Origin: Halobacteriales archaeon YIM A00013
GTDB lineage: Archaea > Halobacteriota > Halobacteria > Halobacteriales > Haloarculaceae
DNA length: 64,000 nt
Assembly: GCA_025041195.1 (NCBI GenBank)
Contig: JAKCFM010000001.1
Location: 1,736,001-1,800,000 of the forward strand
Direction of reading: 5' to 3'
Made by a program: the position numbers and the translations under genes. The first letter of the stretch is position 1, and the number at the start of each line of letters is the position of its first letter. Positions 7,156-11,169 of this stretch are shown here, one piece after another. The notes under the pieces are model-generated. The model worked only from the letters and a program-made list of their open reading frames with translations, had not been told where the DNA came from and made no database searches.

Positions 7156-7455
7156 ATGGCAGACGAGAACGACGTAGTACGACAAGAAACCGCCTACAAG
7201 GATGGGATGGTCCGGTCAATCACAATGCGACCGACCGATTCAGATACCTACCCTTGTGGTTGGAAATATCGTCTGCACTTTGGCGACACTGATGGCAACA
7301 CCGTTCTACGATATGATAACTCGCACGAGCTCGAAAAAGGCCATGAATGCCACACTCCGGATGGCGTTGAAATCATCGACTTCCCCGGAATGATGACCCT
7401 TTACAACCGATTCCTCCGGGAGGTTGATCAGTGGTGGGAGCGAAATGAAGAGTGA
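7156..7455 (+). CDS. TumE-like (DUF6516) putative toxin
   Basis: 99-residue soluble protein resembling the DUF6516/TumE toxin family of haloarchaea. The core pattern GWKYRLHFGDTDGNTVLRY, then DNSHELEKGHE, then a C-terminal amphipathic FLREVDQWWE is characteristic. The gene following on the same strand is the winged-helix partner this family usually has, so the pair looks like a type II toxin-antitoxin module. The molecular activity of the toxin is not evident. It opens the accessory block that runs to 11.2 kb. Confidence 0.75.
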   Translation: MADENDVVRQETAYKDGMVRSITMRPTDSDTYPCGWKYRLHFGDTDGNTVLRYDNSHELEKGHECHTPDGVEIIDFPGMMTLYNRFLREVDQWWERNEE

Positions 7456-7531
7456 CAGACTAACGTCGATTCAATCATCTGCACGTGCATCGAACACAAA
7501 TCAACGCGGTGCAACAACAGCGGTAGCAACC

Positions 7532-7933
7532 ATGACAGACACACTGATCGTTCGAATCGGAGAGGATGATCGAACACGACAGGAGACCCGTGAATGGATC
7601 GCAGCAGCAGAACGAGGAGAAGATATCGAACCAAATCGAGTCCTCAATATCGAGCGTGAGGAAGATGTTGCACGCATTCTCAGTGCGGTAAATCTCGAAC
7701 TGCTCCGAACGATCGCAAGAAAGGAACCGGCAAGCATCCGCGAGACGGCTGAACTCGTCGACCGCGACGTTACGGACGTTCACGGTAATCTAACGAAGCT
7801 CGAAACACTCGGTCTGATCGAGTTCGAACAGGATGGCCGAGCGAAGCGCCCAGTTGTCCCCTACGACGATATTCAGCTTGATATTGATCTCTCCGGCGAT
7901 AATGACGGAAATCACAGGCATGCAGTTGCGTGA
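7532..7933 (+). CDS. HVO_A0114-type winged-helix DNA-binding protein (putative antitoxin)
   Basis: 133 residues. A C-terminal winged HTH (NLELLRTIARKEPASIRE, TELVDRDVTDVHGNLTKLE, LGLIEFEQDG) follows an N-terminal segment MTDTLIVRIGEDDRTRQET typical of the HVO_A0114 family. Likely represses its own operon and neutralises the TumE-like protein upstream. The start at 7532 gives the conserved N-terminus. ATG 7445, overlapping the toxin stop, would give a longer protein and cannot be excluded. Confidence 0.78.
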   Translation: MTDTLIVRIGEDDRTRQETREWIAAAERGEDIEPNRVLNIEREEDVARILSAVNLELLRTIARKEPASIRETAELVDRDVTDVHGNLTKLETLGLIEFEQDGRAKRPVVPYDDIQLDIDLSGDNDGNHRHAVA

Positions 7934-8071: not shown

Positions 8072-8458
8072 TTATTCATTCCCCGCCAGTGGTATACGAC
8101 TCGCAAGCCTATCCTCAATGTCTTGCTCAGTGATCGTTCCAGGATGATATTTCGCAGGGAGTATCCTATTGGGTATTATAAATAGTAATGATATGGATAA
8201 GAAGGCGCATAAAGCTATCAATCCATCCTCAAAGAGGATGCGTATTATAATAAAGTGGAATAGGATACCAACAAAGACCGTCGCCCCTAGTGTAAATGGT
8301 CCAAGACCACCGGATCGGCGTTCAAACCCATCACTTGATTGTAAAGTAAGAAAAGGAGCCACATCTAGCAATACAGGATGTAAAATGAAAATATAAAATA
8401 ATATCGAAGCCACAACAACGATTCCTAATTGTATATATGTGCTTGGTTTTTCTTCCAT
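8072..8458 (-). CDS. Small membrane protein, paralogue B (candidate immunity protein)
   Basis: 128 residues with three to four helices: res 10-27, 55-75 and a long hydrophobic stretch 78-100. It is a clear paralogue of the product of 8687-9076: shared are P-x-LLDVAP, QSxDGFxRRxGGLG and the C-terminal QDIEDxLASRIPLAGxE. It starts two bases after the stop codon of the orphan tip gene, so it is the last gene of a compact minus-strand operon. The coding DNA is strikingly A+T-rich (19 G/C in the 60 bases 8161-8220). I know no characterised homologue. An immunity role is inferred from the gene order only. Confidence 0.8.
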   Translation of the reverse strand: MEEKPSTYIQLGIVVVASILFYIFILHPVLLDVAPFLTLQSSDGFERRSGGLGPFTLGATVFVGILFHFIIIRILFEDGLIALCAFLSISLLFIIPNRILPAKYHPGTITEQDIEDRLASRIPLAGNE

Positions 8459-8459
8459 T

Positions 8460-8690
8460 TTAGTTCACCCACGAATTGGTTTGCGGTTTTGTGAATTTAT
8501 TCAATGATTTGTTACTACTGGTTTCGTTATCTAATGGCGATATCTGAATTGTTCGACAGAAACCCTCAGATTTCCATTTTTCATCTACGTTATCTTGACT
8601 TTGCCAATTGCAATAGTTGATCGCAACAACATATGCATTACCACCTGTGACGGTCAGACCACCCCAAATGTGATCAATTCTGTCGCTCAC
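8460..8690 (-). CDS. Orphan copy of the C-terminal tip of the 690-residue exported protein
   Basis: 76 residues with no signal peptide. The core TGGNAYVVAINYCNWQ, then VDEKWKSE, C-R-TIQISPLD matches the end of the upstream large protein (TGGEAYTIANNYCNWQ, VDKSWKAE, C-Q-TIQMSPLD), including both Cys. The first 12 residues and the Asn/Ser/Lys-rich last 20 are unlike it. The GTG start overlaps the stop of the preceding gene by four bases and the next gene starts two bases after its stop, so it is probably translated. A displaced tip module without the secretion and carrier domains is what polymorphic toxin loci call an orphan cassette. Confidence 0.72.
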   Translation of the reverse strand: MSDRIDHIWGGLTVTGGNAYVVAINYCNWQSQDNVDEKWKSEGFCRTIQISPLDNETSSNKSLNKFTKPQTNSWVN

Positions 8691-9076
8691 TCACTCCCCG
8701 CCAGGGGGATACGACTCGCAAGCCAGTCCTCAATGTCTTGCTGGCCAATAGTACCAGGATAATATTTTTCTGGAAGCATTTTGTTTGGTATGATAATCAA
8801 TAATATTAATAACATGAACGCAGTGAAAGATAGTAAGCCATCTTCTATGATTGAAATAATCGCGATATAATAGATATAAACACCAATCACGAGTGTGGCG
8901 AGATACGATAAGAGTCCTAGACCTCCCGTTCGCCGATCAAATCCGTCGCCCGACTGGAAGGCGAGAATTGGGGCAACGTCCAATAGTATTGGATTTACTA
9001 TATATATGAATATGACAGTCATCACTACGAAGATCGCTATCCGTTCGACGTATTCCTTGAATGTTGTAGTAGTCAT
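8687..9076 (-). CDS. Small membrane protein, paralogue A (candidate immunity protein)
   Basis: 129 residues with hydrophobic helices at res 12-33, 57-76 and 82-98, a conserved central polar loop QSGDGFDRRTGGLG and a soluble C-terminal tail ending in ASRIPLAGSE. It begins 20 bases after the stop of the large exported protein and overlaps the next gene by four bases. Its product and the product of 8072-8458 are paralogues over their whole length. A membrane-embedded partner encoded directly after an exported protein with a variable tip suggests immunity or tip binding. No biochemical family is recognised. Confidence 0.8.
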   Translation of the reverse strand: MTTTTFKEYVERIAIFVVMTVIFIYIVNPILLDVAPILAFQSGDGFDRRTGGLGLLSYLATLVIGVYIYYIAIISIIEDGLLSFTAFMLLILLIIIPNKMLPEKYYPGTIGQQDIEDWLASRIPLAGSE

Positions 9077-9096
9077 TTTGAATCAGTAATTATCAT

Positions 9097-11169
9097 TTAA
9101 CTATGTGCGATTTTTGAATTACTTTCATCTAGAGGAGACATTTGAATAGTTTGACAAAGGCTTTCAGCCTTCCAACTCTTATCAACGCTTGACTGGCGCT
9201 GCCAATTGCAGTAATTATTCGCGATAGTATAAGCCTCGCCACCAGTGACACCTACATCTACCACAAATTTCCTGCTATTTTTAGCCCTAAACATTCTCTT
9301 AATATATTTTGGTTTAATATCCATATCCACTGCCCACTTCACATTTTCAAGATCATTGCCTTTTTTGGCATAGTATTTGATGTCATCAACTGGCACGTCA
9401 TCCGTAGCGAGCTCGCCCGCAAGACCCAGATCAGCGTTCTTCCGATTGAGCAACAGCACATCGTCCGACGTTGCTCCCTCTTTCGCAAGTGGCATTGCCG
9501 TTTCGGGATCGATCCCTTTCTGTGTGAGTGTCAGGACTGCATCGCCACTGAAGCCCTCCTTTACGAGTGGCTTTGCCTCCTTGAGATCGATGCCAGCATC
9601 GATGAGCGCCTGTTGTTGCTTCCCTGAGACTCCATGTTTGACCATGCTATTCACGAACTGTTCCTCATATCCTCTGTTCACGATGTCTGTGTACTGGTCG
9701 TTTGTGATCTTGGCGGTGTTAGGTGGACGCTTCGAAAGGATCTCTGCATTTTTCTTTAGGGTCCCTTTCATCGAGTATTCGATGATCTCACTCATCGACT
9801 CACCACGATTTAACAATACAGTCGCACCGCCATCGCTGACCAAATCCAGCCCAACCCGTATTTGCACCCTTGAGGCGCTGTTCGCGAGGAAAGTGGCCAT
9901 CGTCTTGACCACAACTGGTGAGCGTCCAAAATTCTTAATCCAACTGGCGGTAACCGAGGCGACTTTTGGCGCATCCCCAAGTCCAAACGCACCGAGACTA
10001 CCTGCAATTCCGATTGCATCGAGTGTCGCCTCCCCAAACTCACCCACATCCAACTCTGTTATAGCACTGTAACTGTTCTGAATAAAATCGCGGGTATCAG
10101 CGACTACGCCAACGTACGGCGTTGACGCAAGTCCCAGCATTCCAAGGAGATAAAACGGCGACTCAGACTGGGTGACTTCCGCCAAACCCTTTGGCATCCC
10201 CATCTCACCCAACACACTTCCCAGGGCGAAGGATCTGGCCTGCTCAGGATTCTCGTGCGCCCAGACGCCGATCCCCACTCCCGGAATTCCTCCCAGGATC
10301 ATAGCTTTGAGCGCGGGATGTTTTTCCAGGAAATCGATTACCGCACCAATGTCATTGTTGAATTTTTGAATGTATTCGTTTGCCTTTTCTAAAGGTGATT
10401 TGACCACCTCCGAAACTTCATTGGTGACCTGCTGAACGTCATCCTCCTCGTTACCGTCGAGATCGATCGCTCCATCGTCGGTGAAGAGCCGATCTTTGGC
10501 ATCGTCATCGAGACACGTCAGTCCGCAGTCTCTTTTTTGTTCGTCGCCCGAATCCCCGCCAGACGATCCCTGTGCGGATTGATCGGAATCCTGTACCGGA
10601 GGTACTGATTCGGACGAGTCCGATCCATCGGAATCAGGTGCCCGTGCACCCGAAACATCAGAATCAGCGTTGACCGTGAGATCGGTCTGAAGCTTCTCTA
10701 CGTTCGTATTGGTCGTATCGATTGAAAATCCTACACCAACGGACTGTCCTGGATCGAGCTTGACAGCGTTTCGTTTCTTCTCAAGCGGGGTGGATCCATT
10801 GTAAAATCTGATGTTCGGTTCGGTATCCTGTAGCCAGACAGAGACTGGACTGGTCCCCTGATTGGTAATCGTGAAAACGTTGTCCAGCTGCATTTGACCG
10901 TTTGCGTTCACACCCGCTCCCAGCTGAGAGCCGCCGTCACCGACGCTATCGAGCGAAAGCTCCAGTTCTCCGGCTTTCGTATAAGAAACATACTCGCCGT
11001 TGTCCCCACTCGCAGGGTGCAGCCCGAGATAGCCCCCCGCATCGTCGGCCACCTGTACGTTGGCGTTCCGTTGGGCAGTGAACGAGTCGAACGCCCCAGT
11101 GACGTAGATTGCACTCGTCACCAACCCAACGGCAATCAGAACGATCGCAAGACGACGGACCCTCCTCAT
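9097..11169 (-). CDS. Exported multidomain protein with DUF1102-like N-terminus and variable C-terminal tip (candidate polymorphic toxin)
   Basis: 690 residues. Res 1-28: basic start plus one hydrophobic helix (signal or anchor). Res 30-165: DUF1102-like beta domain (VQVADDAGGYLGL, LDNVFTITNQGTSPVSVWL). Res 170-215: Ser/Asp/Gly linker. Res 215-220: CGLTC. Res 285-420: hydrophobic Gly-rich region (TPYVGVVADTRDFIQ, GEATLDAIGIAGSLGAFGLG) resembling the pre-toxin region of bacterial polymorphic toxins. Res 505-625: helical repeats of about 26 residues (LIDAGIDLKEAKPLVKEG, LTQKGIDPETAMPLAKEG). Res 636-690: short tip with two Cys. The DNA encoding the tip is poorer in G+C (23/60 at 9121-9180) than the body (33/60 at 9541-9600). 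It is the first gene of a four-gene operon. The toxin role is inferred. Confidence 0.7.
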   Translation of the reverse strand: MRRVRRLAIVLIAVGLVTSAIYVTGAFDSFTAQRNANVQVADDAGGYLGLHPASGDNGEYVSYTKAGELELSLDSVGDGGSQLGAGVNANGQMQLDNVFTITNQGTSPVSVWLQDTEPNIRFYNGSTPLEKKRNAVKLDPGQSVGVGFSIDTTNTNVEKLQTDLTVNADSDVSGARAPDSDGSDSSESVPPVQDSDQSAQGSSGGDSGDEQKRDCGLTCLDDDAKDRLFTDDGAIDLDGNEEDDVQQVTNEVSEVVKSPLEKANEYIQKFNNDIGAVIDFLEKHPALKAMILGGIPGVGIGVWAHENPEQARSFALGSVLGEMGMPKGLAEVTQSESPFYLLGMLGLASTPYVGVVADTRDFIQNSYSAITELDVGEFGEATLDAIGIAGSLGAFGLGDAPKVASVTASWIKNFGRSPVVVKTMATFLANSASRVQIRVGLDLVSDGGATVLLNRGESMSEIIEYSMKGTLKKNAEILSKRPPNTAKITNDQYTDIVNRGYEEQFVNSMVKHGVSGKQQQALIDAGIDLKEAKPLVKEGFSGDAVLTLTQKGIDPETAMPLAKEGATSDDVLLLNRKNADLGLAGELATDDVPVDDIKYYAKKGNDLENVKWAVDMDIKPKYIKRMFRAKNSRKFVVDVGVTGGEAYTIANNYCNWQRQSSVDKSWKAESLCQTIQMSPLDESNSKIAHS

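Follow-up and report, generated by a model that had tools for sequence, protein, structure and literature searches.

The minus strand of a 64,000-nucleotide stretch of the ∼3.73 Mb genome of the haloarchaeon Halobacteriales archaeon YIM A00013 (hereafter, the window; G000:C1:1736001-1800000), whose nearest named relative among the genomes compared is Halocatena marina DFN5, carries a compact four-gene locus that is probably a polymorphic toxin-like system of Halocatena. In this system, a pilin-like toxin with a short C-terminal tip (tip 1) would be accompanied by a small membrane protein, M1, acting as its guard, and by a spare cassette that consists of a second tip, T2, and a second membrane protein, M2, with the tips moving by recombination. 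The direct support comes from the gene order, homology, a conversion-like signal in the M1 and M2 genes, cassette exchange in relatives and the recurrence of orphan tips. The genes are arranged in the order 690-amino acid (aa) protein, M1, T2, M2, with the following features:

9097-11169, minus strand: 690-aa modular surface-toxin-like protein (open reading frame (ORF); DUF1102, TafE and Tafi pilin matches; solenoid model; stems of paralogues)
9277-9399, minus strand: pre-tip stem motif (DVPVDDIKYYAKKGNDLENVKWA...), the site of tip change in related genes (alignment of 10 toxins; hidden Markov model (HMM) score 57.1; breakpoints)
9097-9282, minus strand: tip 1 (TGGEAY...NYCNWQ...VDKSWKAE..C.TIQMSPLD), which ends the large protein (85.6 bits with the tip HMM for 9133-9282)
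8687-9076, minus strand: M1, predicted membrane protein of 129 aa, proposed to confer immunity to tip 1 (ORF; low-confidence model)
8460-8690, minus strand: T2, 76-aa stemless orphan tip (ORF; tip HMM, 78.9 bits; non-synonymous and synonymous divergence from tip 1)
8072-8458, minus strand: M2, predicted membrane protein of 128 aa, proposed as a further immunity protein (ORF; alignment with M1)
8696-8742, minus strand: near-identical tail stretch of M1 (43/47 bases; codon excess)
8081-8127, minus strand: near-identical tail stretch of M2 (43/47 bases; codon excess)

An earlier note on this DNA described the locus as a tandem duplication of a tip plus membrane protein unit, with selective conservation of the DNA that encodes the tails of the membrane proteins. 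Two of its observations are confirmed, namely, the near identity of 8081-8127 and 8696-8742 (43 of the 47 bases in an ungapped comparison at an offset of 615) and the presence of all four motifs, TGGxAY, NYCNWQ, VDxxWKxE and TIQxSPLD, in both tips. The tail stretch is enclosed in a 160-nt direct repeat with 72% identity (8076-8235 and 8691-8850), and the two units are arranged head to tail with a repeat spacing of 615 nt. Tip 1 is the C-terminus of the large protein, and T2 is a separate frame that starts with a GTG codon overlapping the M1 stop codon (GTGA overlap). The scores of both tips with the tip HMM compare with a best reversed-sequence score of 0.4.

Exchange of such cassettes was observed in two independent comparisons, both with the breakpoint at the pre-tip stem motif. 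The first one involves G134 and G299, sister species from a genus other than that of the window. Along L017:5457-6476, the stems of their toxin-like genes are identical in 56-60 of the 60 positions per block, and identity falls to 36-42/60 in the tip; G134 then carries an extra immunity gene (L017:6728-7075), and from L017:7197 to 8096 the two sequences are again identical in 56-60/60 positions. After the swapped cassette, the guard, the orphan tip and the flanks are common to both, so that the two species differ by one tip/immunity cassette. The second case comes from the window's own genome, where the paralogues L102 and L105 have nearly the whole stem in common, with 57-60/60 matching positions in each block of L102:7393-8349 (57/57 in a block that contains a gap), and drop to 23/35, 27/56, 27/47 and 23/57 at the pre-tip motif, with both the tip and the immunity gene included in the drop. 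The suggestion that the tip and the membrane protein move as a unit is thus borne out by their joint exchange in both comparisons.

Orphan tips recur as well. Among the five distinct loci that contain the tip, an orphan copy is present downstream in the window, G134 and G299, and none is found in H. marina and G005. The orphans of G134 and G299 (L017:7595-7759 and L101:5683-5850) are located downstream of the immunity gene and retain the end of the stem (SPETINAVWKWGSR); the G299 orphan is devoid of the first conserved cysteine, and the G134 frame has no potential start codon (ATG, GTG or TTG) ahead of the stem remnant, the first such codon being a GTG within the remnant itself. A fourth orphan, L119:3573-3755, is encoded in the window's genome at about 2.385 Mb (13.8 bits, compared with 0.4 for reversed sequence). 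There, within L119:3077-4121, the tip (YCSWQ...C) is flanked by two membrane protein genes, with no full-length toxin gene nearby. A weak stem-like remnant precedes this tip in another frame; its pairwise score was reached by one of 2000 shuffles and is its sole support given that the stem HMM did not report it.

The large protein consists of an N-terminal hydrophobic helix and a Tafi-pilin-like/DUF1102 domain (about residues 1-175), followed by a linker, a conserved middle region (about 263-475), a 13-residue helical solenoid (about 485-635) and the tip. DUF1102 is the sole Pfam family above the cut-off (E 8.8e-5), and similarity to the Tafi pilin of Natrinema J7-2 extends over residues 11-151 (E 2.9e-7 with a profile and 0.0019 with a single sequence). 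The NCBIfam TafE model matches the window protein (E 9.2e-7) and all eight other toxin-like proteins compared, always below the curated cut-off; the window protein scores 28.8 bits against the 155 required for TafE and 27.1 against 420 for TafF. By these scores, the relationship with the TafE/TafF pilus subunits is one of domain resemblance only. In the fold comparison, the Tafi pilus (9p0a) has a Z score of 6.2, level with many unrelated immunoglobulin-like folds, and the matches of the N-terminal domain are mostly general immunoglobulin-like or PapD/MSP folds; because these score similarly to the Tafi pilus, the pilin link stems from sequence rather than from the fold ranking. The full-length model is poor overall, with a predicted local distance difference test (pLDDT) score of 47.7, and yields no Foldseek match at E ≤ 0.001. 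The solenoid is modeled with confidence (pLDDT 82-87), and its top fold match, a designed nanocage (Z 8.1, root-mean-square deviation 7.8), is taken as a generic repeat match. Mounting of the large protein on a real pilus is a guess.

This architecture is also consistent with a different role, namely, that these are variable proteins of the cell surface that form fibres, mediate adhesion or recognise kin, with the small membrane proteins serving as anchors or assembly partners. The Tafi-pilin-like domain, the membrane location of the partners and the lack of a recognised toxin domain all fit such a scheme; Pfam, NCBIfam and PADLOC contain no toxin family that matches the window proteins of this locus (PADLOC gave no match at all), which leaves room for a new toxin. 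However, the combination of variable C-termini and small variable neighbours with multiplied guards and orphan modules is the toxin/immunity pattern, as portrayed in the available part of PMC3150448, and anchors would not explain the paralogues of the window's genome that have long tips next to soluble-looking neighbours (L103 and L106). We consider this role unlikely.

Under the polymorphic toxin scheme, the 690-aa protein would be exported and held outside the cell by its pilin-like domain, with the short tip, which contains two conserved cysteines, displayed at the end of the helical stem. Upon contact with a neighbour cell, the tip would act, presumably as a toxin, and M1 would shield the producer and its kin. 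In colicin-type systems, a membrane-embedded guard is the basis for deducing a membrane target, and by this analogy, the nature of the guards suggests that the tips attack the membrane. Recombination at the pre-tip motif of the stem would bring in new tips, and the replaced tip/immunity unit would be left behind, such that the cell retains its former immunity and a reserve of tips. The T2-M2 pair, a spare cassette behind M1 that combines a stemless, probably silent orphan tip with its own membrane guard, might be either such a left-over or an incoming unit; M2 may still shield the cell from older kin, and T2 could be transferred to the stem. A more specific version, which we put forward tentatively and with odds somewhat against it, is a cassette-swapping weapon on a donor-strand-type (Tafi-like) scaffold, where interchangeable two-cysteine tips attack the membrane, membrane immunity proteins are arrayed, and the stem motif together with the tail of the immunity gene serves as the crossover site for orphan tips.

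The proportion of synonymous differences (pS) is 0.85 between tip 1 and T2, 0.81 between tip 1 and the H. marina tip and 0.80 between T2 and the H. marina tip, and the proportion of non-synonymous differences (pN) is 0.27-0.28 for all three pairs. T2 has been subject to purifying selection (pN 0.27 versus pS 0.85 against tip 1), averaged over its whole history, which is no proof of a present function. Together with the intact frame and the start codon that overlaps the M1 stop, this low pN could indicate that T2 is translated independently as a small protein, with coupling to M1 via the GTGA overlap, and functions with M2 as a secreted peptide or decoy. Against this role, the tip lacks a preceding signal helix, the selection estimate does not pertain to the present specifically, and the G134 and G299 orphans, one lacking a start before the stem remnant and the other degraded, look like left-over cassettes. 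An independent role of T2 therefore appears improbable, about to the same degree as the fibre scenario.

The divergence of M1 and M2, which share 54% identity across an alignment of 123 residues, is uneven, as the earlier note had it: 15 of the 19 residues from position 111 on are identical, compared with 17 of the 45 in positions 56-100, and the Nei-Gojobori (NG86) pS is 0.84 in the body (68.4/81.0) and 0.35 in the tail (4.0/11.3). In the model of M1, the tail corresponds to a helix (112-122) that follows three long helices (4-34, 54-79 and 81-100). Because amino acid conservation alone can make DNA alike, codons were compared solely at residues identical in both proteins, methionine and tryptophan excluded. 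With the tail boundary chosen after the earlier note had pointed to the tail, identical codons were found at 11/15 such residues in the tail versus 15/52 in the rest (Fisher p=0.0028). In a boundary-free scan, the best cluster of identical codons occupies alignment columns 113-127 (permutation p=0.024). The tail spans 17-23 codons, and every statistic on it is one of small numbers; the codon signal, coming from few codons and uncorrected, is moderate. Nevertheless, the likeness of the tail DNA exceeds the conservation of the protein.

In other arrays, the tail behaves differently. It is the least conserved part of the guards in the H. marina pair I1/I2 (5/20 residues compared with 79/105, or 75%, in the body) and in the G134 pair immA/immB (2/15 compared with 65/96, or 68%), so that the strong selection on the tail proposed in the earlier note does not hold as a rule for the family. 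The only H. marina pair with a conserved tail, I1/I3, shares 14/18 residues and codons at only 4/14 (12/19 in the window). Between the window and I3, the tail residues are kept at 9/14 positions for M1 and 9/13 for M2, and codons are poorly kept, at 3/9 for each. The I2 tail is of a different type (PENMNDLQDLEDRY) that resembles the tail of the G005 guard (PENINDLQELEDRY); the guard tail types form a mosaic, which is in itself a sign of exchange. The near identity of the M1 and M2 tails is best explained by a short tract of gene conversion or crossing over between old, otherwise diverged guard genes, given that the identity extends to the level of codons and that the body is saturated and the tail is younger. 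Maintenance of the tail by an RNA- or DNA-level function was considered and rejected because the codons are not kept against I3, and a search of the window's own genome with the 3' end of the M2 gene gave M1 as the sole strong partner. The part of the earlier claim that invoked recombination between cassettes stands, given the exchanges in G134/G299 and L102/L105 and the codon-level likeness of the tails, whereas 'ongoing' is not borne out at this locus, where the tails differ at 4.0 of the 11.3 synonymous sites.

Both units are of considerable age, dating roughly from the divergence from H. marina or from before it, and the tail is younger. This follows from the saturated synonymous sites in the bodies of M1 and M2, the greater closeness of both guards to I3 (60% identity for M1 and 59% for M2) than to each other, and the equal distances among the three tips. 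In the tree, M2 groups with the H. marina copies (support 80/90). A simple recent tandem duplication is rejected on the saturation of the bodies and also finds no support in the distance between tip 1 and T2, which equals that of either tip to the H. marina tip. A plain tandem duplication within the lineage, after which the membrane segments diverged quickly and the protein sequence of the tail was held by strong purifying selection, would agree with the head-to-tail order at the 615-nt spacing, the failure to reject M1 and M2 as sisters and the well-kept tail residues against I3, but is the least likely of the alternatives because of these same distances of tips and guards, a body-to-tail difference in pS beyond what protein selection alone would give, and the poor tail conservation in the two other arrays.

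Several observations weigh against the reading of the locus as a toxin system with exchanged cassettes. The clean cases of tip exchange come from another genus and from other paralogues, and the window's own locus shows none; H. marina has three guard genes without an orphan tip; and T2, unlike a dead cassette, has an intact frame with its own start codon. Neither the tips nor the guards gave a match to a known toxin or immunity domain, and the membrane-protein model is of low confidence (pLDDT 61). The M1/M2 pair is the only one of ten with a codon scan below 0.05, at an uncorrected p=0.024, and the tree that joins M1 and M2, 4.55 log units worse, is not rejected by the approximately unbiased (AU) test (p=0.089). 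Finally, no TafA pilin was detected in six Halocatena genomes by a search that was also silent in every control genome.

The components of the system differ in their spread. With the whole large protein as the query, 83 of 145 genomes gave matches, the strongest within the genus, and the window's genome alone contains seven N-terminal matches, mostly long frames with differing C-termini and small neighbours. The guard family is narrow, with representatives in 8 of 391 genomes in a sample of the class (2 of the 86 genera), and the tip family is narrower still, with strong matches in four of these genomes (G000, G002, G134 and G299) among the 35 listed by the search, the 31 weak ones (best E 0.013-0.98) being left uncounted; a fifth tip is encoded in G005, outside this sample. 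G002 and G006 share one identical 3,915,224-base contig, in which their matches have identical coordinates. A contig scan with the tip pair recovered a single locus, in H. marina DFN5. An origin from viruses or plasmids is unsupported within the searched collections because the guard alignment gave 58 pattern matches in viral contigs, none of them confirmed, and the M1 query had no match among PLSDB plasmids.

Small genes adjoin the tips throughout (in the window and at L015, L016, L017, L019, L101, L102, L105, L106, L107 and L109). At L018, L102, L104, L105, L107 and L109, the toxin-like gene and its candidate immunity gene face each other in a convergent arrangement instead of following one another on one strand. 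In the window's genome, the toxin-like genes at L102:6433-8592 and L107:7142-9111 are each split into two frames in this assembly, and the paralogues at L103:5285-7646 and L106:5413-7836 have long enzyme-like C-termini, for which Pfam has no family, beside soluble-looking small proteins. Stand-alone TafE-like pilin genes are located directly upstream of toxin-like genes at L107:9254-9865 and L018:9370-9948. Many loci are accompanied by a member of a family of ∼180-210 aa proteins (MTLPLFLFRDEDRNCVNLSTVDSR...GTWCRPCQSTGCPHAT...), as at L102:5586-6134, L103:8626-9165, L105:8532-9080, L107:5650-6282, L108:4741-5373 and L118:3199-3738, the last of which has no Pfam match. In the window, the opposite strand directly downstream of M2 carries a TumE-like toxin gene (7156-7455; Pfam TumE, E 2e-11) that is overlapped by a gene for an HVO_A0114-type winged helix-turn-helix antitoxin-like regulator (7424-7933; E 2.7e-32); this pair (7156-7933) is treated as a module apart from the tip/guard locus.

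The locus displays several traits of polymorphic toxins, namely, a trafficking part that is conserved at the N-terminus and followed by variable tips at the C-terminus, with an abrupt change at one motif, a small candidate immunity gene next to each tip, and standalone tip cassettes (T2, L017:7595-7759, L101:5683-5850 and L119:3573-3755). In contact-dependent inhibition (CDI) systems, Poole et al. describe orphans as short fragments after the immunity gene, often startless and with varying remains of the stem (PMC3150448, available part). Like the orphan cdiA-CT/cdiI and rhs-CT/rhsI modules, as presented in that same portion of the paper, the tip fragment and its immunity gene are found here directly behind the main pair, with or without a piece of stem up to the boundary motif, and are exchanged between strains. 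Unlike those modules, the present locus is archaeal, its boundary is IPxxDIxYYVxxGxSLxxV, its tips span about 40-60 residues and its guards are membrane proteins. The hallmarks of CDI (CdiBAI) proper, two-partner secretion, haemagglutinin repeats and the VENN boundary, were not found: there is no CdiB partner and no RHS match, VENN is absent from the translated large protein, and Pfam, where only DUF1102 passes, gives no two-partner secretion or filamentous haemagglutinin (FHA) match. The archaeal polymorphic toxin groups of Makarova et al. (2019), compared here through the description in the accessible part of PMC8416519, similarly consist of a long surface protein with a variable C-terminus, arrays of homologous genes and adjoining immunity genes. 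The Halogeometricum borinquense contractile injection system, going by the available text of PMC11566945, likewise serves antagonism among haloarchaea, its toxins being silenced by a gene located downstream, but delivers them with a contractile machine, none of which is seen at this locus, where the tips are borne by a pilin-like protein. The Tafi pilus of Natrinema sp. J7-2 (PDB 9p0a) is related to the N-terminal 150 residues in sequence and probably in fold; the window protein, far below the TafE/TafF cut-offs, runs 500 residues further with a stem and a tip.

The exchange of toxin/immunity cassettes is well described in bacteria, and experimental examples from archaea are few. A literature search, which mostly did not reach subscription papers and so is weak evidence of novelty, found no paper on a toxin linked to a Tafi pilin. 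The family presents a compact testable case, with short tips, one guard gene for each, a boundary motif, before-and-after genome pairs and orphan cassettes. If the pilin-like domain puts the tips on surface filaments, this would be a mode of delivery in archaeal contact antagonism that we did not find described in the literature surveyed.

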